From contig NZ_JADPMP010000006.1 of the NCBI RefSeq assembly GCF_015686655.1, forward strand, positions 186,001-250,000: a stretch of 64,000 nt of DNA, given 5' to 3'. Within the stretch, counting starts at the first letter, position 1. Every line of letters starts with the position of its first letter. Both the position numbers and the translations under genes were made by a program. Origin of the DNA: Pontibacter sp. FD36. Its GTDB lineage: Bacteria; Bacteroidota; Bacteroidia; Cytophagales; Hymenobacteraceae. Shown one piece after another: positions 30,089 to 56,776 of this stretch. The notes under the pieces were generated by a model. The model was given only the letters and a program-made list of their open reading frames with translations, was not told the origin of the DNA and did not search any database.

Positions 30089-33000
30089 ATGATGAAAAAA
30101 TTACAATGTTACCTATGGGGGATATGTTTCCTCCTGTTTCACTTTACAGCCAATGCCCAGAGCACGACTGTGACCGGCACGGTAACTGCCGCCTCCGACA
30201 ATACCCCGCTACCTGGTGTGACGGTAGCCGTTAAAGGCCAGCCGCGTGGTACGAATACCGACACGGATGGCAAATTCTCCATTTCTGTGACACCTTCTGA
30301 TGTATTGGTGTTCAGCTTTATCGGTATGAAACCTGCTGAGAGACCTGTGGGTACTAACACAGTAATCAATGTTGCACTGCAAGCCAATGCTGAGAGCCTG
30401 AGCGAAGTAGTAGTAACAGCCCTTGGTATCAAGCAGGAAAAGAAAGCGCTCGGTTACGCCGTAACAGAGGTTAAAGGTGCTACCATTGCACAGACACAGC
30501 GTGAGAACTTCGTGAACGGCCTTGCCGGTCGTGTGGCTGGTGTGGAAGTAAACGCTTCTTCTGGTCTGCCAGGTTCTTCTTCTTCTATCGTAATCCGTGG
30601 TATCAGCTCCCTGAGCGGTAACAACCAGCCACTGTTCGTAGTAGATGGTCTTCCGATCAGCAACAACACAACTTCTACAGGCGTGTTCGCTTCTTCTATC
30701 GGTGCCGGTTCCCGTTCATTCGAGAACAGAGGTGTTGACTTCACTAACCGTGCAGCTGACATCAACCCAGAGGATATCGAAAGCATCACAGTTCTGAAAG
30801 GCCCTGAAGCGGCCGCTCTTTATGGTATCGAGGCTGCCTCTGGTGCGATCGTGATTACCACCAAGCGTGGTCAGGCTGGCAAAGCCCGTATCAACTACAG
30901 CAACAGTTTCCGTCTGGATCGTATCGTGCGTTACCCTGAAATTCAGCAGAAGTACGACAGAGGTATTAATGGCTATACAGTTGAGCAAGGTGAGAGTATC
31001 GGATTTTTCGGTGCCCCTTATCCATCAGAAGTTCAGTTTTATGACAACGTGAAGAACTTCTTCCAGGACGCTTTCACACAAAAGCATAACCTGGCCTTTA
31101 CTGGTGGCAACGAAGCGGCGCAGTACCGCATCTCCGGTTCTTTCACAGATGCACAGGGCTTCATTCCAAATACAGGACTAGAGCGTATTACCCTTTCTTC
31201 AGCGATTACAGCGAAACTGAGCAAATATCTGTCAACAGATGTAACTTTCGACTATACCCGTTCTGACAACGACCAGGCTTTCAGAGGTGCCGGTGGTCCA
31301 TTGCTTCAGTTGCTACGTTGGCCATCTACTGACGACGCCAGCAACTACCTGACTCCAAGTGGGGGCAGAAGAGATTATGCTCCATTCGCAACAGCTGTTG
31401 AAAACCCATATTTCAACGTAAATAAGAACATCTTCAACTCTCTGACAGACCGTTACAGACTGAACGCCAGCCTTACGGCGGATGTGACAGACTGGATGAA
31501 ACTCGTTGGTCAGGCAGGTGTTGACTACTATACCGAGAAAAACACGATCGTACGTCACCCAGAGTCAAATGCTGGTCGCTCGTTCGGTGGTATCTTCGAC
31601 CAGGCGGTAGTTACAAACCGTAACCTGACGTTCCAGTACTATGCTCAGTTCACGGCACCTACGCTGTTCAACGACAAGCTGCGTACTGACCTGAAAGTGG
31701 GTAGTACAGTGTACGACTGGAACACATTTAGTGCTGCCGCTACTGGTGAGCAGTTCATGGCCCCGGATCTGTACTCGATCAACAACACAGCTCTTACCAC
31801 ACAGCGTGCTTACAACAACCTGACGCAGCGTCGTCTGGTAGGTGCCTGGGGCAGCTTCAACGCCAGCTACAACGACATAGTATACTTGACGTTGACGGGC
31901 CGTAATGACTGGAGCTCTACGCTTCCGGTTGAAAACAATTCTTTCTTCTACCCATCAGCCGCTTTGAGCTTTGTGTTCACCGAGTTGGAGCCATTCCAGG
32001 GTATTAAGAATGTGCTTTCTTTCGGTAAGTTGAGAGGCTCTATTGCCCAGGTAGGTAAAGATGCAAGGCCTTACAGTCTGCGTCCGTTCTATGAATCAGC
32101 ACAGACTACGGGTGGTGGCTTCCGTTACGGTTTCACAGGCCCAAGCCTGAACCTGCGTCCGGAAATGACGACTTCTTACGAATTCGGTACAGAGTTGAAG
32201 TTCTTCAACGACCGTTTCGGTATCGATGCGACCTATTTCAAGAAGAAATCTGTTGACCAGATCGTACAGAACCTGCGTCTGAGCTACGCTACAGGTTTCG
32301 TATTGATGACCTTCAACGCCGGTGAGATGGAGAACTCAGGTATAGAGCTCCAGTTGAACGGTACGCCGGTGCAGAACAGCAACTTCACGTGGGATGTATT
32401 GCTGAACTACACAAAGAACAACAGCAAGCTGACGAAACTGCCTGGCGATGTGCAGGAGTTCTACAATTCTGACACTTGGTTGTATGGCAACGTGCGTGTA
32501 GGTTCCCGTTTGGATGGTCCGCTTACAACCTTTACAGGTTATGACTATCAGCGCAACGACAACGGTGATGTATTGATCAACCCATCTACTGGTTTGCCTT
32601 TGTTGAACACGAGCGAGTGGGTAGTGGTAGGTGATCGTAACCCAGATTTCAACATCGGTCTGACAAACACATTTACTTACAAGAACCTGTCGCTTAACTT
32701 CCTGCTTGACATCCGCAAAGGAGGTGACGTGTATAATGCAACAGAGCATTACCTGACAGTAACAGGTTTGAGCAAACGCACTTTAGATCGTGAGACGCCG
32801 CGTATTGTGACTGGTGTTCTTAGAGATGGTTTGGAAAATACTGCCAACCCAACGCAGAATAACATTCCGATTGATCTTCACAGAAACTCCGATTACTGGG
32901 CTTCTATCTACCCGCACCAAAATTTCGTCGAGAAGGATGTGAACTGGGTACGTTTGCGTGACGTGACATTGAACTACCGTATGCCGACTAGTATCATGCA

Positions 33001-33196
33001 GCGTGTGAAGTTCATCGAAGACCTGAACGTGTTTGTAACTGGTACAGATCTGTTCCTGATCACAAACTACTCTGGTCTGGATCCGGTAGCAAACGGTAAC
33101 TCTGCTGCAGTAGGTGGCGCAGGTGGTGGTGGCCTCGACTATGGTAACTTCCCGTTGCCAAGAGGAATTAACTTTGGAATTAGAGCAGGATTTTAA
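30089..33196 (+). CDS. SusC/RagA-type TonB-dependent outer-membrane transporter
   Basis: A 1035-residue protein with signal peptide (to about ANAQS). Order: carboxypeptidase-like domain (TVTGTVTAASDNTPLPGVTV, about 27-105), TonB-box-like SLSEVVVTALG, plug domain with SSIVIRGISSLSGNNQPLFVVDG and LKGPEAAALYGIEAASG, then a beta-barrel ending in the aromatic INFGIRAGF. With the SusD partner 5 bp downstream it should import large oligomers in a TonB-driven way. All its neighbours act on peptidoglycan or amino sugars, so muropeptides or glycan fragments are the likely cargo. Codon use and the scarcity of GGTATA motifs differ from the flanking genes. Confidence 0.93.
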   Translation: MMKKLQCYLWGICFLLFHFTANAQSTTVTGTVTAASDNTPLPGVTVAVKGQPRGTNTDTDGKFSISVTPSDVLVFSFIGMKPAERPVGTNTVINVALQANAESLSEVVVTALGIKQEKKALGYAVTEVKGATIAQTQRENFVNGLAGRVAGVEVNASSGLPGSSSSIVIRGISSLSGNNQPLFVVDGLPISNNTTSTGVFASSIGAGSRSFENRGVDFTNRAADINPEDIESITVLKGPEAAALYGIEAASGAIVITTKRGQAGKARINYSNSFRLDRIVRYPEIQQKYDRGINGYTVEQGESIGFFGAPYPSEVQFYDNVKNFFQDAFTQKHNLAFTGGNEAAQYRISGSFTDAQGFIPNTGLERITLSSAITAKLSKYLSTDVTFDYTRSDNDQAFRGAGGPLLQLLRWPSTDDASNYLTPSGGRRDYAPFATAVENPYFNVNKNIFNSLTDRYRLNASLTADVTDWMKLVGQAGVDYYTEKNTIVRHPESNAGRSFGGIFDQAVVTNRNLTFQYYAQFTAPTLFNDKLRTDLKVGSTVYDWNTFSAAATGEQFMAPDLYSINNTALTTQRAYNNLTQRRLVGAWGSFNASYNDIVYLTLTGRNDWSSTLPVENNSFFYPSAALSFVFTELEPFQGIKNVLSFGKLRGSIAQVGKDARPYSLRPFYESAQTTGGGFRYGFTGPSLNLRPEMTTSYEFGTELKFFNDRFGIDATYFKKKSVDQIVQNLRLSYATGFVLMTFNAGEMENSGIELQLNGTPVQNSNFTWDVLLNYTKNNSKLTKLPGDVQEFYNSDTWLYGNVRVGSRLDGPLTTFTGYDYQRNDNGDVLINPSTGLPLLNTSEWVVVGDRNPDFNIGLTNTFTYKNLSLNFLLDIRKGGDVYNATEHYLTVTGLSKRTLDRETPRIVTGVLRDGLENTANPTQNNIPIDLHRNSDYWASIYPHQNFVEKDVNWVRLRDVTLNYRMPTSIMQRVKFIEDLNVFVTGTDLFLITNYSGLDPVANGNSAAVGGAGGGGLDYGNFPLPRGINFGIRAGF

Positions 33197-33201
33197 TTAA
33201 G

Positions 33202-34809
33202 ATGAAAATGAGAAAGATAGTATTTGCTTCTCTTATAGCGGCCAGCGTGTTTTCGGCATCTGGCTGTAAAGATTACCTAGATGTAAACACAAACCCGAAC
33301 GGTCCGGATGCTTTGCTGCAGCCGGAGCTGTTCCTCCCTCAGATACAGTCTGAAATGGCAGTAGCCGTGCAGTGGGATGGTCGCTTTGCCGGTCAGTATG
33401 TGCAGAACTGGGCATCAACTGTGACAAACAATGCTATTGATCAGCATGGTAACCCACTATCAGATTCTTATGCACAGCTTTGGAGAGCGGTGTACTGGAG
33501 CATGGGCTACAACCTATCAGACATGATTGAGAGCGGCGAGCGCAGCAAGAAGTACGATTTTGTAGGAGTTGGACATGTTATGCGCGCTTACGGATGGCAA
33601 AACCTGACCGATTACCATGGTCCGGTGATCATGACAGAGGCTTTTGACCCTGACAAACGTGTGTTCAACTACGATGAGCAGGATGTTGTATATCCTGAAA
33701 TCAAGCGTCTGTTGGAAGAAGGCATTAAGAGCCTGGAGCGTACAGATGGTCTGGATGCTGCCAGCTCTGGCTTATCTAAGAGCGACTTGATTTATGGAGG
33801 TAATCGTGAGCAGTGGAAGCGTTTTGCATACGGCCTACTGGCTATCAATGCACACCGCCTGACAAACAAGCCTTCTTATGACCCGAACAAAGTGATCGAG
33901 TACGTAGATCAGGCACTTGCCAGCAACGCTGACAATGCTTTGATTCGCTTCGAAGGAACTGTTAGCGCGAACACAAGCTTCTTTGGTCCGCTTCGTAATA
34001 ACATAGCTTCCAATCGCCAGACAAAATACATCGTTGGATTATTGGATGGTACTAACTCTGAGCTGACCGATAGTGGTTTGCAAGGTGCAGATCCTATTTT
34101 CGAAGGCCAGCACTTGAAGGATCCACGCATCACAGCCATGTTGGCTCCTTCTCCGGATGGCGAGTACAGAGGAATTACTCCTACTTTGGGTCTGTCTGAG
34201 TTTCCTAACTCAACCGATCCGCGCATTCCTAAAAACCTGTGGAATGCGACAGGAGTTTCTACTGTGCCAACTGGTCCTCAAATCTATTTCTTCGCAAATG
34301 CAGCCAGATTCCCGCTGATGACCTATTCACAGCTACAGTTTATTAAGGCTGAAGCCGCTTGGATTGCTGGTAAGAAGGACATTGCTCTTCAAGCATACAG
34401 AAATGGTGTAATTGCGCATATCGATTTTGCACGCACTTACGCTCCCGATCCTGCTGTGTATGATGAGCGTAAGGAAGCATATTTGGCCAGTGAAGTTATG
34501 ATGCCATCAACATCTGCCGGTCTAACACTTTCTAAGATTATGCTGCAGAAGTATATCGCGACTTGGGGTTGGGGTTTCCTTGAGACCTGGTCTGATATGA
34601 GAAGATATCACTATAACCAAGACGAAGAAGTTTATACTGATTTTGTATTGCCTAACACACTGAACGTAGCAAATATGGGCAAACCTGCTTACCGAGCTCG
34701 TCCGAGATACAATTCAGATTATATGTGGAACCAGGAAGCGCTTCGTGCAATGGGTGGCTTTGAGGAGGACTACCATACATATGAAACTTGGTTCAGCAAA
34801 CGTCAATAA
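33202..34809 (+). CDS. SusD/RagB-type substrate-binding lipoprotein
   Basis: A 535-residue surface lipoprotein (lipobox SASGC, Cys22) of the SusD-like_2 type, recognised from CKDYLDVNTNPNGPD, RAVYWSMGYNLSDMI, RFAYGLLAINAHRLTNK, PLMTYSQLQFIKAEAAW and the late WGWGFLETWSDMRRY. It caps the SusC channel and binds the glycan. No GGTATA motif was seen in the gene. The next gene starts 15 bp downstream. Confidence 0.92.
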   Translation: MKMRKIVFASLIAASVFSASGCKDYLDVNTNPNGPDALLQPELFLPQIQSEMAVAVQWDGRFAGQYVQNWASTVTNNAIDQHGNPLSDSYAQLWRAVYWSMGYNLSDMIESGERSKKYDFVGVGHVMRAYGWQNLTDYHGPVIMTEAFDPDKRVFNYDEQDVVYPEIKRLLEEGIKSLERTDGLDAASSGLSKSDLIYGGNREQWKRFAYGLLAINAHRLTNKPSYDPNKVIEYVDQALASNADNALIRFEGTVSANTSFFGPLRNNIASNRQTKYIVGLLDGTNSELTDSGLQGADPIFEGQHLKDPRITAMLAPSPDGEYRGITPTLGLSEFPNSTDPRIPKNLWNATGVSTVPTGPQIYFFANAARFPLMTYSQLQFIKAEAAWIAGKKDIALQAYRNGVIAHIDFARTYAPDPAVYDERKEAYLASEVMMPSTSAGLTLSKIMLQKYIATWGWGFLETWSDMRRYHYNQDEEVYTDFVLPNTLNVANMGKPAYRARPRYNSDYMWNQEALRAMGGFEEDYHTYETWFSKRQ

Positions 34810-35773: not shown

Positions 35774-35812
35774 AGCCCCTCCTTTACTAAACCTATTGGA
35801 GGGCTTTTTTTT
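35774..35812 (+). terminator. Rho-independent terminator before the GHL10 gene
   Basis: AGCCC-CTCC (35774-35782, one bulged C) pairs with GGAGGGCT (35798-35805), followed by eight T residues. It separates the SusCD/DUF4397 unit from the glycosidase gene that begins at 35838. Confidence 0.85.
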
Positions 35813-35837
35813 AGCCACCCTATACCCAACCGGAACA

Positions 35838-37379
35838 ATGATTAGAAACTTTACACTTTTAGCCGCCCTGCTACTCAGTTCAGTCAGCCTGTTTGCACAG
35901 GGTACAAAGAACCCTCCTAAACGTGAGTTCAGAGGCGTGTGGATTGCCACGGTGCAGAACATCGACTGGCCTTCCAAGCCAAAGCAGGGGGTAGACTCCC
36001 AGCAGCAGATGCAGGAACTGGTCGACATTTTCGACACCCATCAGAAAACAGGTATAAATGCTGTGATGCTGCAAGTGCGTCCTTCGGCTGACGCGTTCTA
36101 TGCCAAAGGCCGTGAGCAGTGGAGCATGTTCCTGACCGGCAAGCAAGGCACGCTGCCAGAGCCATTTTATGATCCGCTGGAGTTTGCCATTGAGGAAGCC
36201 CACAAGCGTGGCATGGAGCTGCATGCCTGGATCAATCCATACCGTGCTTCCACCAGCCTGGCCGATTCGCTGGTGAGCAGCGAGCATATTTCCCGCATTC
36301 AGCCGGACTGGTTCTTTACCTATGGCGACAAAAAATATTTCAACCCCGGCATACCTGAGGTGCGCCACTACCTCGTGGATGTGATCATGGATGTGGTGCG
36401 CAACTACGACATCGACGGCATCCATTTCGACGATTACTTTTACCCTTATCCGGGCAAAACTGCCCTGCCAGACTCCATCACTTATATGTTGCATGAGCAA
36501 GGCATTAAGAACATAGAAGACTGGCGCCGTAACAATGTGGACCAGCTGATCAAAGACCTCTCAGAGGCGATCAAGAAAGAGAAGAAGCATGTGAAGTTCG
36601 GTATCAGCCCGTTTGGTATCTGGCGCAACAAGTCACAGGACCCGCAGGGCTCTGAGAGCAATGGCCTGTCAGGGTATAGCGCCTTGTATGCCGATGCCCG
36701 CAAGTGGGTGCAGGAAGGCTGGATCGATTATATCAACCCGCAGCTGTACTTCCCCTTTGGCTATACCCCGGCACCTTACGAGAAACTGCTGGACTGGTGG
36801 GCTGACAATGCCAACGGCAAGCACGTATACATAGGCCAGGGTGCCTACCGTGCCATGGAAGACCGCGAAGGCTGGCGCGACAGGCAGCAGCTGCCAAACC
36901 AGGTGCGCTATCTGCGCGAAAACCCGCGCGTGCAGGGCAGTGTGTATTTCAGTTCCCGTTCGCTTACCAACAACCTGGCTGGTTTCCGCGATTCCCTGCA
37001 ACACGACCTGTACCGCTACCCGGCGCTGCAGCCGATTATGCCCTGGTTAGGTATGGCCAAACCTGCCAAGCCAGTTAGTCTGCGCGAAGACAAGTTCCTG
37101 CTCTTCTTACCGCGACTTCGCAAGGCAATTATTAAATGGGATTACCCGGATCAGGAAGAGGATGTGTATGGTTTTGTGGTATACCGCTTCGACGAAAACG
37201 AACCGATCAACCTGGAACATGCCCGCAACATTCGCCACATCCAATTCAACGATTACGAGCTGGGCTTCCACGACGAGACAGCCGAACGCGGAAAGACCTA
37301 CAAGTATGTGGTGACATCCATCGACAGGTTGAAAAATGAGAGTAAGCCTTCTAATGTTTACCTAAAAAAACTACGCTAG
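35838..37379 (+). CDS. GHL10-family glycosyl hydrolase (DigH/YngK-like)
   Basis: A 513-residue exported protein. The ATG at 35838 gives signal peptide MIRNFTLLAALLLSSVSLFAQ; the frame is open to 35796 but that overlaps a terminator. The (beta/alpha)8 domain begins with FRGVWIATVQNIDWPS and has NAVMLQVRPSADAFY, HAWINPYRAS, DIDGIHFDDYFYPYP (Asp193, Asp198) and WIDYINPQLYFP. A fibronectin-like domain follows (about 415-510). E. coli DigH of this family cleaves peptide-free (denuded) peptidoglycan glycans, which fits the neighbourhood. The GH9 gene begins 4 bp later. Confidence 0.85.
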   Translation: MIRNFTLLAALLLSSVSLFAQGTKNPPKREFRGVWIATVQNIDWPSKPKQGVDSQQQMQELVDIFDTHQKTGINAVMLQVRPSADAFYAKGREQWSMFLTGKQGTLPEPFYDPLEFAIEEAHKRGMELHAWINPYRASTSLADSLVSSEHISRIQPDWFFTYGDKKYFNPGIPEVRHYLVDVIMDVVRNYDIDGIHFDDYFYPYPGKTALPDSITYMLHEQGIKNIEDWRRNNVDQLIKDLSEAIKKEKKHVKFGISPFGIWRNKSQDPQGSESNGLSGYSALYADARKWVQEGWIDYINPQLYFPFGYTPAPYEKLLDWWADNANGKHVYIGQGAYRAMEDREGWRDRQQLPNQVRYLRENPRVQGSVYFSSRSLTNNLAGFRDSLQHDLYRYPALQPIMPWLGMAKPAKPVSLREDKFLLFLPRLRKAIIKWDYPDQEEDVYGFVVYRFDENEPINLEHARNIRHIQFNDYELGFHDETAERGKTYKYVVTSIDRLKNESKPSNVYLKKLR

Positions 37380-37383
37380 CCTT

Positions 37384-39243
37384 ATGAAGAACAGGAAAAA
37401 GACCATATTGGCGCTGGTGCTGACGACGATGATCGTGGCGGCCAACGCCATTGCGTTCTCGAACAAAGCTACTCCTGCTATCGAGGAGGCAGGTATAGTC
37501 GCCAAAGGTCCTGCCTGGATTCGCATTAACCAGTTAGGCTATACTCCTCAAGGTATAAAAGTAGCCGTATGGGGAAGTAAATCGAAAGAAAAGCTTCGCC
37601 GCTTTCAGCTGGTGGACGCTAGCACTGGCAAAGTAGTCTTCAAAGGCAAAGCTGGTGATGCTTTTGGTGCTTACGGACCGTTTGAGGAATCTTACCGCCT
37701 GAACTTCACCGATTATAACAAGCCGGGTACTTACTACCTGCAGGCCGGCAGTGCTAAGTCGCCCGAGTTCCGGATTGACGCCGACGTGTACAAAGGTACC
37801 GCTGATTTTGCACTGCGTTATATGCGCCAGCAACGCAGCGGCTTCAACCCCTACCTGCAAGACTCCTGCCATACCCAGGACGGCTATACCATGTATGGCC
37901 CGATGCCCGACAGCACCATCATCGACGTGTCGGGTGGCTGGCACGACGCTTCGGATTACCTGCAATATGCCACTACCTCAGCCAATGCGACATACCACCT
38001 GCTGGCCGCCTACCGTGACTTTCCGGGCGTGTTCACTGACAAGCACCAGGCCAACGGACTCGAAGGGACCAACGGTGTGGCCGACGTGCTTGACGAAGCA
38101 AAGTGGGGACTGGACTGGCTTGTGAAGATGCACCCACGTGAAGACTGGCTCTTCAACCAACTAGCTGACGACCGCGATCACCAGGGCATGCGGCTTCCAA
38201 CGAATGACCCTGTTGACTATGGCATGGGCAATGGAGGTCCGCGTCCGGTATACTTTGCCTCCGGGGAGCCGCAAGGCCTGGGCAAGTACCAGAACCGAGC
38301 GACTGGCGTTGCCTCTATTGCCGGGAAGTTTACGAGTGCTTTCGGGCTGGCCGCTCAGATTTACAGCACCAAAGATCAGAGCCTTTCTAATCTCTTTGGC
38401 CAGAAAGCACAGTCTGCCTACAAACTGGGCCTGGCCAAACCAGGCGTTGCACAGACCGCTCCTAACAGGGCGCCTTATTTCTATGAGGAAGACAACTGGG
38501 TAGATGACATGCAGCTGGGTGCCGCGGCGCTTTACCAGCTGACCGGCAAGCAGGAATTCTTCCAGCAAGCCTACACCTACGGACTTCAGGAAAAGGTAAC
38601 CCCGTGGATGGGGGCCGATACAGCCCGCCATTATCAGTGGTACCCGTTTCACAACTTCGGTCACTTTGAGCTGGCCAAAAAATCTGACGACAAGACGAAA
38701 GCAGAGTTGATCGGATTCTACAAGGAAGGTATAGAAAAGGTATATGCCAAGGCAAAGAAGAATGCCTTTTACCGTGGAGTGCCGTTCATCTGGTGCTCCA
38801 ACAACCTGACTACTTCTTTTGCCATCCAAAGCTTCCTGTACCGCCAGTTATCCGGCGACCAGACTTACGCTGAGCTGGAGCAGGCAAACTTAGACTGGTT
38901 GTTCGGCACAAACCCTTGGGGGACGAGCATGGTATATGGCCTGCCAGCGTACGGCGATACGCCAACAGACCCGCACTCCGCCTTCACCCGACTGAACAAG
39001 TACCCGATTGATGGAGGGCTGGTGGATGGTCCGGTGTATGGCAGCATCTTCAACAACCTACAACATCTGAAGTTATACAGCGAGGATGCTTATGCCGAAT
39101 TTCAGTCTGACCTGGCCGTATACCACGATGACTTCGGCGACTACAGCACCAACGAGCCAACCATGGACGGTACCGCTTCGCTGATCTACCTGCTGGCATC
39201 CAAAGAGTATAGCTCACGGGAGGGGAGTCAGGCAAAAAAGTAA
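37384..39243 (+). CDS. GH9-type glycosidase with N-terminal Ig domain
   Basis: A 619-residue exported protein. An Ig-like CelD_N module (about 43-130, IRINQLGYTPQGIKVAVWGS) precedes the (alpha/alpha)6 domain with GGWHDASDY (184-192, Asp188 and Asp191 as base pair) and the late Glu591 in STNEPTMDG as likely acid. GH9 is mostly cellulase, but exo-glucosaminidases are known in the family, and nothing here suggests cellulose. The stop TAA at 39241 follows A AAA AAG, and the -1 frame continues directly into a polysaccharide deacetylase domain (39240-39953). A two-domain GH9-deacetylase protein is therefore likely, either ancestral or made by frameshifting. Confidence 0.87.
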   Translation: MKNRKKTILALVLTTMIVAANAIAFSNKATPAIEEAGIVAKGPAWIRINQLGYTPQGIKVAVWGSKSKEKLRRFQLVDASTGKVVFKGKAGDAFGAYGPFEESYRLNFTDYNKPGTYYLQAGSAKSPEFRIDADVYKGTADFALRYMRQQRSGFNPYLQDSCHTQDGYTMYGPMPDSTIIDVSGGWHDASDYLQYATTSANATYHLLAAYRDFPGVFTDKHQANGLEGTNGVADVLDEAKWGLDWLVKMHPREDWLFNQLADDRDHQGMRLPTNDPVDYGMGNGGPRPVYFASGEPQGLGKYQNRATGVASIAGKFTSAFGLAAQIYSTKDQSLSNLFGQKAQSAYKLGLAKPGVAQTAPNRAPYFYEEDNWVDDMQLGAAALYQLTGKQEFFQQAYTYGLQEKVTPWMGADTARHYQWYPFHNFGHFELAKKSDDKTKAELIGFYKEGIEKVYAKAKKNAFYRGVPFIWCSNNLTTSFAIQSFLYRQLSGDQTYAELEQANLDWLFGTNPWGTSMVYGLPAYGDTPTDPHSAFTRLNKYPIDGGLVDGPVYGSIFNNLQHLKLYSEDAYAEFQSDLAVYHDDFGDYSTNEPTMDGTASLIYLLASKEYSSREGSQAKK

Positions 39244-39953
39244 TAGTAGACAGCCACGGCGCGATCATTCGGGGCGATACAACTGCCCGGCAGATTGCGC
39301 TGATCTTTACTGGAGATGAGTTTGCAGACGGAGGAGAAATGATCAGTAATGTACTGAAAAAGCACCGGGCTAAAGCCTCCTTCTTTCTAACGGGGCGCTT
39401 TTACCGGAATCCTGCTTTCAATCACTTGATCAGGGAATTGAAGAAAGAGGGCCACTACCTGGGTGCGCACTCCGACGAGCACCTGCTGTACTGCGACTGG
39501 ACAAAACGCGACAGTCTGCTGGTCACAAAGGAGCAGTTCAGCCAGGACCTGCGGAAAAATTACCAGCGCATGGAGGCCTTTGGTGTGAAGAAGAAAGACG
39601 CGCCTTACTTTCTGCCGCCATACGAATGGTATAACCGCAGCATCAGTAACTGGACATCGGCGGAAGGGCTGCAACTGGTTAATTTTTCGCCCGGCACCCG
39701 TTCTGCCGCCGACTATACCTACCCCGAAATGGGCAACCGATATGTGGACTCGGAAACGGTGCTGCAGTCGATCATGAGGTACGAGGTGAAAGACAGGAAC
39801 GGGTTGAACGGCTTTATGCTGCTCCTGCACATTGGCACCGATCCGAGGCGAACGGACAAATTTTACCACCGGCTGGACGAAATGCTCACGAAGCTGAAAG
39901 AGAAAAACTATCAATTCGTGCGGTTGGATGACTTGCTGGAGCAAGAAAAGTAG
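39240..39953 (+). CDS. NodB-type polysaccharide deacetylase module in the -1 frame of GH9
   Basis: The frame is open from 39213 with no ATG before 39339. Read from the end of GH9 in the -1 frame it gives VIVDSHGAIIRGDTTARQ, then IALIFTGDEFADGG, the first strand and catalytic-Asp region of the NodB fold, then KASFFLTGRFY, GAHSDEHLLYCDW (metal His pair), PYFLPPYEWYN and FMLLLHIGTDP. The ATG at 39339 has a GGAGGAG upstream, but starting there removes the first strand and its Asp, so an independent short gene would be damaged. Likely role: N- or O-deacetylation of a glycan, perhaps peptidoglycan or chitin-like oligomers. Either a programmed frameshift product, a split gene or an A-run indel. Confidence 0.7.
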   Translation, partial: VIVDSHGAIIRGDTTARQIALIFTGDEFADGGEMISNVLKKHRAKASFFLTGRFYRNPAFNHLIRELKKEGHYLGAHSDEHLLYCDWTKRDSLLVTKEQFSQDLRKNYQRMEAFGVKKKDAPYFLPPYEWYNRSISNWTSAEGLQLVNFSPGTRSAADYTYPEMGNRYVDSETVLQSIMRYEVKDRNGLNGFMLLLHIGTDPRRTDKFYHRLDEMLTKLKEKNYQFVRLDDLLEQEK

Positions 39954-39987: not shown

Positions 39988-40605
39988 ATGAAAAAAATAC
40001 TGATACTGGTGTGCGCCCTTGCCGGCTTTGTTGGTTGCCAGCAACCTGCTACCACCTCGGATACACCGCTGATACCGGAAGGTATAACCTACCTGTCGCG
40101 GGAGGAGTGGGGAGCTAATGCCCCTGTGCTGCCGATGCGACCGCATAAGCTGACGAGGCTGACCATTCATCATACTGGCGTGCCGCAGTTGTTTGAACGT
40201 AGCCTGACTGACAAGCTGCGCAATCTGCAGAAGTTCTCACAGGAAGACAGCCCCTTGGCGGATGGTCGCATGAAACCGGCCTGGGCGGATGTGCCTTATC
40301 ACCTGTATGTGGATGTGCATGGGGCTGTAGGGGAGGCACGGGACCTCAACTATGCCGGCGATTCGAACACCAGTTACGATCCGGCCGGACACCTGCTGGT
40401 AGTGGTAGAGGGTAACTTTGAAAAGGAAGCGATCACGGAGGCACAGCTGAAAACACTCGAAAAACTGGTGCCGGCCCTGGCGAAGCGTTTCGGTATACCT
40501 GCCGACAGCCTGGGGGCGCACAAGGATTTTGCTGATACCAGCTGTCCGGGCGCTGGCTTGTATGCGGAGCTGCCACGATTCAGGCAATTAGTGAAAGGCA
40601 ATTAA
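39988..40605 (+). CDS. N-acetylmuramoyl-L-alanine amidase lipoprotein, Amidase_2/PGRP type
   Basis: A 205-residue lipoprotein (FVGC, Cys17). LSREEWGANAP is the PGRP-type opening, TIHHTG gives zinc ligand His61, and GAHKDFADTSCPG supplies His178 and Cys186. PYHLYVDVHGAVGEARDLNYAGDSN is the substrate groove. It should cut the bond between MurNAc and L-Ala on the outer or periplasmic side, freeing glycans and stem peptides. A second, different amidase of the clan is at 54532-55446. Confidence 0.92.
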   Translation: MKKILILVCALAGFVGCQQPATTSDTPLIPEGITYLSREEWGANAPVLPMRPHKLTRLTIHHTGVPQLFERSLTDKLRNLQKFSQEDSPLADGRMKPAWADVPYHLYVDVHGAVGEARDLNYAGDSNTSYDPAGHLLVVVEGNFEKEAITEAQLKTLEKLVPALAKRFGIPADSLGAHKDFADTSCPGAGLYAELPRFRQLVKGN

Positions 40606-42815: not shown

Positions 42816-43628
42816 ATGGAGATTACAACCGAGAAAGACTCGAACTATAACAACCTGGAAAAGATGTCGGTGAGGGAAGTGCTGGAGAACATCAACCGTG
42901 AAGACAAAAGCGTACCCCTTGCCGTTGAAAAGGCAATTCCACAAATTGAAAAACTGGCTGAAGTAGTAGCAGATCGCATGAAAAAAGGCGGTCGGTTATT
43001 CTACATCGGCGCCGGCACCAGCGGCCGTCTGGGCGTAGTGGACGCCTCTGAGTGCCCACCGACCTTTGGTGTGCCCTTTGATATGGTAGTTGGCCTGATC
43101 GCCGGTGGTGACACGGCCATTCGTAAAGCCGTTGAGTTCGCCGAAGACGACATGGAGCAAGCATGGGAAGACCTGAAAGAATACGGCCTTGACGAGCACG
43201 ATGTCATTGTAGGTATAGCCGCCTCTGGCACGACACCTTACGTGATTGGTGGCTTGCGCATGGCCAATGAATACGGTCTGGCAACAGGCTGTATCGTGTG
43301 CAACACCGGTAGCCCGGTAGCGGCAGAGGCGCAATATCCGGTAGAGGTAGTGGTGGGACCAGAGTTTGTGACAGGCAGCACCCGTATGAAAGCCGGTACG
43401 GCTCAGAAACTGGTGCTCAACATGCTCAGCACGACCGTGATGATCCAACTGGGTCGCGTGCGTGGCAACAAGATGGTGGACATGCAGCTGACGAACCACA
43501 AGCTTTACCACCGCGGCGTGCGCATGGTCATGTCGGAGACAGGTGCTGACGAAACAACAGCGGCTGCACTGCTGGAGAAACATGGCAGTGTACGCAAGGC
43601 TGTAGCCAGTGTGCTGGTGTCGAAGTAG
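42816..43628 (+). CDS. murQ: N-acetylmuramic acid 6-phosphate etherase
   Basis: A 270-residue SIS-domain lyase: RLFYIGAGTSGRLGVVDASE, the catalytic-Glu ECPPTFG loop, IAGGDTAIRKAVEFAEDD, GIAASGTTPYVIGG and the family signature GPEFVTGSTRMKAGTAQKL. It splits MurNAc-6-phosphate into GlcNAc-6-phosphate and D-lactate in the cytoplasm. It lacks about 30 C-terminal residues relative to E. coli MurQ, as in some Bacteroidetes. A symporter and a D-lactate dehydrogenase follow, which covers import and the use of the second product. Confidence 0.96.
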   Translation: MEITTEKDSNYNNLEKMSVREVLENINREDKSVPLAVEKAIPQIEKLAEVVADRMKKGGRLFYIGAGTSGRLGVVDASECPPTFGVPFDMVVGLIAGGDTAIRKAVEFAEDDMEQAWEDLKEYGLDEHDVIVGIAASGTTPYVIGGLRMANEYGLATGCIVCNTGSPVAAEAQYPVEVVVGPEFVTGSTRMKAGTAQKLVLNMLSTTVMIQLGRVRGNKMVDMQLTNHKLYHRGVRMVMSETGADETTAAALLEKHGSVRKAVASVLVSK

Positions 43629-43749: not shown

Positions 43750-45276
43750 ATGTCTCCAATCGTTCTTTTATCGTTTCTGATAGGCTACTTCGCGGTGCTG
43801 ATAGGTATATCCTACTTTACTTCGAAAGGATCATCAGACAACTCCAGTTTCTTCATCGCCAACCGCAACTCAAAGTGGTACTTCGTAGCCTTTGGTATGA
43901 TCGGTACCGCTTTGTCTGGCGTAACCTTCATTTCGGTGCCGGGAGCGGTGGTGAACAGTAGTTTCGGCTATTTCCAGTTTGTGCTCGGCAACACGGTCGG
44001 CTTTGTGCTGATCGCCTTTGTGCTCCTGCCGCTCTACTACCGCATGAACCTGATCTCCATTTATACCTACCTGGAGAAACGCTTTGGCTATTGGAGCTAT
44101 AAATCGGGTGCCATGATCTTCCTGGTGTCGCGCACCATTGGCTCTGCTTTCCGTCTGTACCTGGTAGCCATTGTGCTACAGCGTTTTATCTTCGATGCCT
44201 GGAACGTACCTTTTGTGGCCACTGTGGCGATTTGCTTGATTCTCATTTGGCTCTATACCCACAAAGGCGGCCTTAAAACGATCGTAATCACGGATACGCT
44301 GCAGACGCTCTTCATTGTGTCTTCGGTTATTTTCTCGATCATCTTTATCGCCAGCAGCCTCGACCTGAACGTGGTGCAGACCTTTGAGGCGGTGAAAAAC
44401 AGCTCTTACTCCAAGATGTTCTTCTGGGAAGATTTCCTGGGTACGAAGAGCCACTTCCTGAAGCATTTCATTGGTGGTATTTTTGTGACGATTGCCATGA
44501 CGGGCCTGGATCAGGACCTGATGCAGAAGAACCTGAGCTGCAAAAACATCGGCGAAGCGCAGAAGAACATGCTGACGTTTACGGGTGTTTTCGTGTCGAT
44601 CAACATCTTCTTCCTGAGCGTGGGAGCCCTGCTGTACATTTATGCAGAAGCGAATGGCATTGATGTAACGGCCCTTGCGACGCCTGACCACCTGTTCCCG
44701 GAAATCGCCCTGAACCACATGGCCATGATTCCGGCCATCATCTTTATGCTCGGCCTTACGGCAGCTACCTTTGCCACCACTGACTCTGCACTGACAGCAC
44801 TTACTACATCTTTCTGCGTGGACTTCCTGAACTTCACCAAAAAAGCCAACCACGATGACATCAAACTGATCCGCACCCGCCACATGGTGCACATTGGCTT
44901 CTCGGTAGTCATGCTGCTGGTTATCCTCGTGTTCAAGATCATCAACGACGACTCCGTGGTGAACGCCATCTTCAAAGCGGCCGGCTATACCTATGGTCCG
45001 TTGCTGGGCTTGTTTGCTTTCGGTATGGCCAACAAACGCGCCGTGGCAGACAAATTGGTGCCGTATATCTGCGTGGTCTCGCCAGTGCTGACATATATTC
45101 TGGACAGCAATTCTGTAGATTGGACAGGCTATGCGATGGGTTTTGAACTGATCGTGATCAATGCCGCGATTACATTTATCCTGTTGCTGGTAACAAGCAA
45201 ACCAGGTGGCGGCATGATGATGGATGCTTTGGAAGAAGCTGAACGCGGTCCTAAAGTAAAACAGACAACTTATTAA
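43750..45276 (+). CDS. Sodium:solute symporter, candidate MurNAc transporter
   Basis: A 508-residue SSS-family permease with about 13 membrane segments: MIGTALSGVTFISVPGAVVNSS, GGLKTIVITDTLQTLF and GLTAATFATTDSALTALTTSFCVDF are family landmarks. It differs clearly from the galactose-type symporter at 26369. Its position between murQ and the D-lactate dehydrogenase suggests MurNAc or a disaccharide as substrate; a symporter-type MurNAc importer (MurT) is known from Tannerella forsythia, as I recall. D-lactate is an alternative cargo. Confidence 0.85.
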   Translation: MSPIVLLSFLIGYFAVLIGISYFTSKGSSDNSSFFIANRNSKWYFVAFGMIGTALSGVTFISVPGAVVNSSFGYFQFVLGNTVGFVLIAFVLLPLYYRMNLISIYTYLEKRFGYWSYKSGAMIFLVSRTIGSAFRLYLVAIVLQRFIFDAWNVPFVATVAICLILIWLYTHKGGLKTIVITDTLQTLFIVSSVIFSIIFIASSLDLNVVQTFEAVKNSSYSKMFFWEDFLGTKSHFLKHFIGGIFVTIAMTGLDQDLMQKNLSCKNIGEAQKNMLTFTGVFVSINIFFLSVGALLYIYAEANGIDVTALATPDHLFPEIALNHMAMIPAIIFMLGLTAATFATTDSALTALTTSFCVDFLNFTKKANHDDIKLIRTRHMVHIGFSVVMLLVILVFKIINDDSVVNAIFKAAGYTYGPLLGLFAFGMANKRAVADKLVPYICVVSPVLTYILDSNSVDWTGYAMGFELIVINAAITFILLLVTSKPGGGMMMDALEEAERGPKVKQTTY

Positions 45277-55474: not shown

Positions 55475-56776
55475 ATGACCAGACCATTACTCACCCGCTA
55501 TACCCTGCGCCTTATACCTTGTCTCAGCTTGCTCTTTCTGCTTGGCTGTAGCGTTGCGAAACCCGTAGCGGAAATGCCTGCGCCTTACGGACCGGCGGAG
55601 ATACAGCGGCAGGTAATGGGAGTGGTGGCATTGCAACAGAGCTTTGTGGGCTTTGTGTTGTATGACCCGGAACTGGGCAAGGCGGTGGTGGAGCACAATG
55701 CCGACAAGTACTTCGTGCCGGCTTCCAATACAAAACTGTTTACCTTTTATGCGGCTTCCAAAATGCTAGGCGACTCTATACCTGCGCTCAAGTATGTGGT
55801 CAAAGGCGACTCACTGATTTTCTGGGGTACCGGTGACCCGACCTTCACGCACATGGACCTCCAGAACAACATCGCCTACGATTTCCTGAAGAACCGCAAA
55901 GAGAAACTCTACTACATCGAGGCGCCCATGACCAGCACGCCTTATGCTACTAACTGGGGCTGGGACGATTACAACTACTATTACCAACCGGAGCGCAGCC
56001 CTTTCCCGATTCACGGTAACATCATAAAGTTTAAAAAGGACAGCACCTCAGCCTATACCGTTACACCAGCTTTTTTTAAGGAGCAAGTAAAGCCCGATAC
56101 TTCCAGGAATGCCCACCGCGACACCTTCCGCAGGGCATGGCGCAGCAACGACATTGCCTACAACCCAAAGCGTGCTGCAATCGCTTTCTCGCAGGAAGTG
56201 CCTTTCATTACTTCGCCTGAGCTGACGGTGCAGCTACTGGCTGACACCCTGAAACGCCCTGTGAAACTGGTGAAGCGATCTATACCTGCGGGGGGACAAA
56301 TTCTCTACGGCCTGCCTGCCGATACCGTGTTCAAACGTATGCTGCAGGTGAGCGACAATCTAATGGCCGAGCAATTGATGATACTGAGTTCCGGGACTTT
56401 TTCGGATACCCTGTCAGTAGAACGGGCTATCCGGTATGCCGTGAAAACTTACTTGTCCGATTTGCAGGATGCGCCGGTATGGATTGATGGCTCAGGCCTG
56501 TCTTCCATGAACATGTTTACGCCACGCAGCATTATTGCGCTGTTGCAGAAGCTGCATGCCGAGCGCCCAAGAGAAAAGTTGCTCCCCATGCTGGCGGTCG
56601 GAGGCAGACCCGGTACTTTCCGGAACATCTACAAAGCGGATGTGCCTTTCGTGTTCGGCAAATCCGGTACGCTCTCTCACGTACACAACCAAAGCGGCTA
56701 TATCATTACGAAGAGCGGCAAACTGTTGATGTACAGCTTTATGAACAACAACTTTAAAACATCACCTCAGAAATAA
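55475..56776 (+). CDS. dacB: D-Ala-D-Ala carboxypeptidase/endopeptidase (PBP4), C-terminus frameshifted
   Basis: A 433-residue S13 peptidase lipoprotein (FLLGC, Cys25). Active-site motifs: SNTK (Ser84, Lys87), SDN (293-295) and KSG (396-398). It trims D-Ala or cuts D,D-crosslinks in peptidoglycan. The frame ends early at 56774-56776; the -1 frame continues as SEIRSAMERIMTEVHEKY to TAA at 56821-56823, a natural PBP4 C-terminus. One extra A in the AAAA run at 56755-56758 would restore it. The catalytic part is intact, so the protein may still work. Confidence 0.92.
   Translation: MTRPLLTRYTLRLIPCLSLLFLLGCSVAKPVAEMPAPYGPAEIQRQVMGVVALQQSFVGFVLYDPELGKAVVEHNADKYFVPASNTKLFTFYAASKMLGDSIPALKYVVKGDSLIFWGTGDPTFTHMDLQNNIAYDFLKNRKEKLYYIEAPMTSTPYATNWGWDDYNYYYQPERSPFPIHGNIIKFKKDSTSAYTVTPAFFKEQVKPDTSRNAHRDTFRRAWRSNDIAYNPKRAAIAFSQEVPFITSPELTVQLLADTLKRPVKLVKRSIPAGGQILYGLPADTVFKRMLQVSDNLMAEQLMILSSGTFSDTLSVERAIRYAVKTYLSDLQDAPVWIDGSGLSSMNMFTPRSIIALLQKLHAERPREKLLPMLAVGGRPGTFRNIYKADVPFVFGKSGTLSHVHNQSGYIITKSGKLLMYSFMNNNFKTSPQK

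Follow-up and report, generated by a model that had tools for sequence, protein, structure and literature searches.

dnaX and prfB are the textbook cases of conserved frameshifting in bacteria, in which only a small number of cellular genes are well known for it. The sections available of two earlier papers describe a hairpin in dnaX (PMC3711429) and a prfB +1 frameshift in 523 of 726 Bacteroidia genomes (PMC8710568). Here, we analyze a GH9 gene and an overlapping NodB/CE4 polysaccharide deacetylase frame in 64,000 nucleotides (nt) of Pontibacter sp. FD36 (NCBI RefSeq assembly GCF_015686655.1, contig NZ_JADPMP010000006.1, positions 186,001 to 250,000; this whole stretch is called the window, and its first letter is position 1). 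Judging from the sequence, dnaX-like programmed -1 frameshifting very probably gives rise to two products, GH9 alone and an exported GH9-deacetylase with a predicted length of 856 residues. The parts of the site are as follows.

37384..39243, + strand: GH9 gene; the 0-frame product of 619 residues has a hydrophobic N terminus, CelD_N, and a complete GH9 domain
39219..39223, + strand: GGAGG, an internal Shine-Dalgarno (SD)-like element whose last G lies 10 nt 5' of the A run
39234..39240, + strand: slippery heptamer A AAA AAG, seen in the sequence, with codons identical in 20/20 Pontibacter
39241..39243, + strand: 0-frame stop TAA, seen in the sequence, directly 3' of the heptamer and followed by TAG
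39237..39953, + strand: -1 frame after the shift, a linker and a NodB/CE4 polysaccharide deacetylase domain (PF01522, AlphaFold2, Foldseek); predicted fusion of 856 residues

The GH9 domain is already complete upstream of the heptamer and stop. It matches PF00759 above the cut-off at 227.9 bits, over all 444 profile positions (1-444), with its end at residue 604 of the 619, placing the product in GH9, with a predicted activity of that family; PF02927 (CelD_N) matches the same product at 83.6 bits. The 3' end of the frame reads gcA AAA AAG TAA TAG. The heptamer has the X XXY YYZ form in the correct 0 frame, as in dnaX-type -1 frameshifting, and the SD-like element stands 10 nt before the A run. 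An earlier note on this DNA, made from its letters alone, had placed a classical -1 heptamer at the GH9 stop and a stop-free -1 frame leading into a NodB domain; both were confirmed, the -1 frame being open from 39213 to a stop at 39951-39953.

Translation of the -1 frame (KKVIVDSHGAIIRGD...IALIFTGDEFADGG) adds 237 residues after the two lysines, which gives the predicted GH9-NodB fusion its length. PF01522 matches the frame from residue 16 at 50.6 bits (cut-off, 23.1), the AlphaFold2 model has a mean predicted local distance difference test score of 93.8 with a strand at residues 20-27, and the top Foldseek matches of this model in the PDB are CE4 proteins, with E values down to 2.4e-15. A domain above the Pfam cut-off and a CE4 fold together identify the frame as CE4/NodB; its nearest solved relatives by sequence profile are PdaA-type deacetylases. 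The first ATG of the frame, at 39339, is residue 36 and lies downstream of the strand, so that translation from it would lose both the strand and motif 1. The earlier note had expected a start there to cost the domain its first strand and an Asp; the strand (and motif 1) would indeed be lost, but the Asp that it stressed is not fixed, as residue 28 is Asp or His in an alignment of 21 sequences in which Glu29, His79, and His83 are invariant. The metal site motifs of CE4 are FDD (motif 1) and HxxxH (motif 2). In most aligned members, motif 1 (window 39306-39320) reads FTG(D/H)E rather than FDD, and the chemistry of a NodB domain with this motif may be unusual.

We searched 119 genomes (own genome included) with the deacetylase. 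There were 38 matches at E 1e-3, and 19 of the strong ones are other genomes of the same genus, Pontibacter, e.g., P. lucknowensis, P. ramchanderi, P. roseus, P. mucosus, P. vulgaris, P. ruber, and P. mangrovi. All 20 Pontibacter genomes found with both domains (window included) have A AAA AAG followed immediately by TAA or TAG, a GGAGG whose 3' end stands 10 nt upstream of the run, and the deacetylase in the -1 frame, at identities to the window of 67-93% for the deacetylase and 76-97% for GH9. The earlier note had proposed aligning homologs to see whether they are fused in one frame or keep the slippery stop, and had counted a separate upstream start in every homologous deacetylase against its reading; the stop is kept in 20/20, and an ATG, GTG, or TTG precedes the NodB core in 0/20. 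Since the same signal is kept in related bacteria, it points to a built-in switch and not to a sequencing error.

The nucleotides of the site are constrained beyond the protein that they encode. In pairs of the 20 Pontibacter GH9 genes, a set not chosen by its run, the same codon is used at the same residue in 51.5% of cases overall versus 99.3% in the last four codons; no other window of GH9 is under such strong synonymous constraint. The GAG codon inside the GGAGG element is GAG in 20/20, and the codon 5' of AAA AAG is GCA, CCA, or GTA, always ending in A. Conservation together with reduced synonymous variability at the site is a mark of dnaX-type frameshifting. The same codon table for 34 other loci gives 42.5% overall and 96.8% in the last codons, a constancy that arises by construction because those loci were picked for A6-8G with an immediate stop and that is set aside as support. 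Among 50 genomes of the genus (own included), 25 have GH9 at E 1e-60: 20 with NodB, three close ones without it, and two distant ones (~60%). Of the three close relatives without NodB, two (G021 and G031) no longer have GGAGG or an in-phase heptamer; the signal thus tends to disappear when NodB disappears.

Beyond the genus, an order search and a phylum search gave matches in 50/390 and 41/395 genomes, respectively (own genome included in both), a search of the family containing Pedobacter and Arcticibacter gave 109/301, and another scan contributed its 80 best named loci as a further sample. Left out of the fetched loci were the weak matches of the 119-genome search, G404, G418, and G345 from the order search, the fused loci of the phylum search, and G813 and 23/56 fused loci of the family search. 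Most nonfused loci were fetched and the fused ones only in part; since fetching favored nonfused loci, the class counts are not prevalences. The 211 distinct loci comprise 87 in-frame fusions (829-930 residues long in the order search), 84 overlaps in the -1 frame, 30 loci without GH9 nearby, 5 with GH9 elsewhere, 3 overlaps in the +1 frame, and 2 separate pairs. In one locus (L250), classed as a -1 overlap by the script, an ATG overlaps the stop and the start is hydrophobic; excluding it from the run-length counts reduces the 84 to 83.

These 83 loci contain two kinds of -1 site. Runs of A6-8 are found in 65 of them (62 with six A). GGAGG lies 5-16 nt upstream in 60/65, at exactly 10 nt in 49, and A6G with an immediate TAA or TAG occurs in 59/65. 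The remaining 18 loci have A9-10 runs, GGAGG in only 2/18, and a variable stop position. As controls, GGAGG is present in 6/87 fused loci (in the 90 nt before the core) and in 90/5053 windows of 22 nt from other parts of the GH9 genes at the 65 A6-8 loci; a Fisher test on the 211-locus tally, which ignores relatedness, gives 5.2e-11. The A6-8 sites come from nine genus codes, together with named loci of Pedobacter, Arcticibacter, and Pararcticibacter, and the gene with a -1 site is present in at least 11 genera or genus groups. By our analysis, the split between A6-8 and A9-10 matches that between two known mechanisms, slipping of the ribosome at A AAA AAG with the help of an SD-like element and slippage of the polymerase where a run has about nine bases, as described in the sections available of PMC5009743 and PMC3711429; the A9-10 relatives probably use transcriptional slippage. 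A sub-clade has A10 runs without GGAGG (L272, L273, L275, L276, L279, L280, L282, L287, L289, and L243) and is a candidate for this route. Some in-frame relatives also have long runs, A11 in L318 and L323 and A9 in L152 and L156, which fits polymerase slippage since the nominal frame matters little there. The 0-frame stop is TAA or TAG in 65/65 A6-8 loci and TGA in none; it is TGA in 2/18 of the A9-10 set.

In a FastTree phylogeny of 178 loci, built from the NodB domain only, at least 14 changes between fusion and frameshifting are required, and 62/174 inner branches are weak; because many forks are weak, we claim only repeated change, not single transitions or a history. Fused and frameshifted loci stand side by side in Pedobacter. 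In Pedobacter rhodius (L160 and L350), A7 puts the two domains in frame and GGAGG and a hairpin are retained, a reverse polarity in which fusion would be the default and a shift would truncate the product.

The start codons and N termini of these genes suggest what a fusion would achieve. By a simple hydropathy threshold, used in place of a signal-peptide predictor and taking the best of all start codons, which favors a positive result for free-standing NodB, a hydrophobic N-terminal segment is present in 41/41 NodB genes without an attached GH9. By the same threshold, with the full stretch back to the previous stop scanned, it is present in 1/76 of the -1 NodB frames, and 73/76 of their GH9 partners have one. 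Thus, only the fusion would be exported. No ATG, GTG, or TTG stands before the NodB core in 36/65 A6-8 loci.

We propose that one mRNA would be translated into two exported enzymes. Most ribosomes would presumably terminate at TAA, their product being GH9 without the deacetylase. The internal GGAGG would pair with 16S rRNA and hold a fraction of the ribosomes at the site; these would slip one base back on A AAA AAG, where Lys-Lys is encoded in either frame, and continue into NodB to make GH9-NodB. The fusion alone would supply an N-terminal export signal for the deacetylase. We infer the ribosomal shift itself, the 16S pairing, and the ratio of the products from this arrangement. That one mRNA could yield both GH9 alone and GH9-deacetylase had been suggested in the earlier note, and the conservation in 20/20 Pontibacter argues for it. 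The own prfB gene keeps an intact +1 frameshift site with an SD, AGGAGGTATCTTTGAC (L221 1497-1512), so SD-assisted frameshifting is probably retained in this lineage. The own genome has at least three tRNA-Lys genes that read UUU, and no CUU gene among the matches listed by two patterns, which can miss genes. The first UUU pattern was too strict (4/80 genomes, at least two of them doubtful) and a looser one was then used; for this reason, absence by the CUU pattern of the same strictness is not trusted alone.

The break between the two frames could instead be a sequencing error or a true deletion in the A run, which would make the gene a decayed in-frame fusion. In-frame fusions do occur in relatives (87/211 fetched loci), and dacB, also in the window, loses its frame where relatives do not, a missing-A parallel that led the earlier note to treat deletion as a strong rival. 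The dacB frame (window 55475-56776) is lost ~20 residues before the usual C terminus. It continues to that C terminus in 20/20 relatives with a match (28 searched), so the break in the window is a private indel or sequence error. The parallel therefore fails: the dacB frame loss recurs in 0/20 relatives with a dacB match, whereas the GH9 break is common to relatives, and exactly six A are found in all 20 Pontibacter genomes with both domains, despite the divergence of both proteins given above. We give an A-run deletion almost no credence. Slippage of RNA polymerase on the A run, in place of a ribosomal shift, deserves slightly more. It is the likelier reading for the 18/83 loci with A9-10, 16 of which lack GGAGG, and for the in-frame relatives with A11 (L318 and L323). 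Efficient slippage is described at runs of nine in the sections available of PMC5009743, but the window has six A, short of a run of about nine or more A/T, and neither a conserved GGAGG nor a constant G after six A is required for slippage; as the source of the shift in the window, it is improbable.

Termination followed by reinitiation would have NodB translated alone, with GGAGG as its ribosome-binding site. GGAGG is indeed located before the stop, and a GTG starts on the last base of the stop in 5/65 A6-8 loci (L265, L268, L269, L278, and L283). However, an ATG, GTG, or TTG is lacking before the core in 20/20 Pontibacter and 36/65 A6-8 loci, and a start placed 5-9 nt past GGAGG would sit upstream of the run, within codons of GH9. 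A NodB made in this way would be without an export signal (1/76), the constant A AAA AAG in the genus would be left unexplained, and, according to the sections available of PMC8710568, SD sequences are rarely used for initiation in Bacteroidia. We consider reinitiation highly improbable, hardly better than a deletion.

Several observations weigh against dnaX-like frameshifting. In the 22 sequences of the Pontibacter-type set, RNAalifold found no conserved fold 3' of the site, at -0.13 kcal/mol and with not one compensatory pair. The sections available of PMC8710568 state that Bacteroidia ribosomes generally do not recognize SD sequences, so a GGAGG stimulator could be weaker than assumed. A CUU-type tRNA-Lys pattern is present in many Sphingobacteriaceae genomes with A6G, and the three genes checked are all tRNA-Lys CTT; by the reasoning in the available part of PMC5009743, a CUU tRNA-Lys should lower slipping, and its presence in A6G genomes argues against a strict single-tRNA requirement. 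Some ATG, GTG, or TTG does stand before the core in 29/65 A6-8 loci, the first one lying inside the strand at residues 20-27 in 14, just before the strand in 4, and earlier in 11. Among the close relatives without NodB, six A remain in G021 and G031, either out of phase or not followed by the G, and G018 (L292) retains GGAGG and A AAA AAG TAG, perhaps as a relic of recent NodB loss. Finally, the loci are related to each other, so the counts are not independent.

A downstream stem-loop is common at dnaX-type sites but does not occur at all of them. Downstream RNA structure was also considered as a general stimulator in Pontibacter and rejected, as the alignment has no consensus fold. In single-sequence folds, the 60-nt z score is at or below -3 in 6/76 loci, the value for the window being -3.2. 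A separate set of six loci (five from Pedobacter and one from a Chitinophagaceae metagenome-assembled genome) has a hairpin right 3' of the site, in which 97.2% of cells are paired versus 39-58% when it is slid, with a compensatory change in 2/6 pairs. Pairing as good as this was reached in 20/500 shuffles, and 61/500 matched it in the number of double changes; with the 20/500 and a set of six sequences, support for this hairpin is moderate.

The genes around GH9-NodB suggest its role. The neighbors are as follows.

30089..33196, + strand: SusC-like TonB-dependent receptor (PF00593, PF07715)
33202..34809, + strand: SusD-like (PF12771, 148 bits)
35796..37379, + strand: GHL10 glycosyl hydrolase-like open reading frame (PF02638, 236.4 bits, scan from 35841; putative TTG start)
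39988..40605, + strand: N-acetylmuramoyl-L-alanine amidase, Amidase_2 (PF01510, 42.2 bits)
42816..43628, + strand: MurQ, N-acetylmuramic acid 6-phosphate etherase (TIGR00274, 331.6 bits; cut-off, 302)
43750..45276, + strand: sodium:solute symporter (PF00474, 79.4 bits)

A PQQ/metallophosphatase protein is also among the neighbors. From these predicted functions, the locus reads as one for uptake and use of amino-sugar or murein fragments. Since the neighbors point to murein sugars, GH9 may not be a cellulase, and we infer that the GH9/NodB pair acts on N-acetylglucosamine/N-acetylmuramic acid glycans. MurQ is encoded in the fetched flanks, which are short and unequal, of 18/58 A6-8, 10/18 A9-10, and 0/61 fused loci (178 loci).

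More broadly, we lean toward the view that one gene family has repeatedly swapped three routes to the same bifunctional enzyme. In this view, A6G sites with GGAGG would use SD-programmed frameshifting, A9-11 runs, mostly without GGAGG, would use transcriptional slippage, and other loci are hard fusions; at least one locus, that of Pedobacter rhodius, has its polarity reversed. Ribosomes that ignore SD sequences at initiation would still read them in elongation; in this locus for murein-sugar uptake, such reading would fix how much GH9 is made relative to the exported GH9-deacetylase. A shift at the GH9-NodB site would link two enzymes and account for export of the second. Its relatives are a natural series for asking why evolution picks slipping by the ribosome, slipping by the polymerase, or fusion. 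They also lend themselves to testing how an SD acts during elongation where, as in this group, the anti-SD is hidden by the ribosome.

A search of one literature library for frameshifting with glycoside hydrolase, polysaccharide deacetylase, Bacteroidetes, Pedobacter, or Sphingobacterium returned no report of GH9-NodB frameshifting. The available main text of the 2013 GeneTack survey (PMC3711429) contains neither "cellulase" nor "deacetylase," and the available part of a 2016 review (PMC5009743) mentions no cellulase, deacetylase, glycosidase, Bacteroidetes, or Flavobacter. A survey of multi-domain hydrolases (PMC4928363) describes, in the sections available, polysaccharide deacetylase domains in xylanases and does not mention the GH9-NodB pair.

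Among known systems, Escherichia coli dnaX is the closest in design. Both genes have A AAA AAG and two products with a common N terminus (predicted for GH9-NodB), and in the E. coli genome record (L291) AGGGAG ends 10 nt before A AAA AAG, the same spacing as that of GGAGG in the window. The polarity is opposite: the shift gives the short product in E. coli dnaX and would give the long one in GH9-NodB; dnaX candidates of reversed polarity are mentioned in the available part of PMC5009743. Unlike dnaX, the Pontibacter-type set has no conserved hairpin, although the Pedobacter-type set has one, and the dnaX product is a polymerase subunit, whereas GH9-NodB is predicted to be an exported enzyme. 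Thermus thermophilus dnaX, with transcriptional slippage at nine A/T (PMC5009743, sections available), resembles the GH9-NodB loci with A9-10, 16/18 of which lack GGAGG, and is inapplicable to the window with its six A. The alpha-L-fucosidase of Saccharolobus solfataricus (PMC8037382, sections available) is also a carbohydrate-active enzyme made via -1 frameshifting; it is archaeal, however, and its shift allows one functional enzyme, whereas that of GH9-NodB would add a second catalytic domain to a complete GH9. Finally, the prfB shift of Bacteroidia (PMC8710568, sections available), the site of which is kept in the own genome, is likewise SD assisted in a group that rarely initiates by SD, but it is a +1 shift, occurs on CTT TGA, and is autoregulatory.

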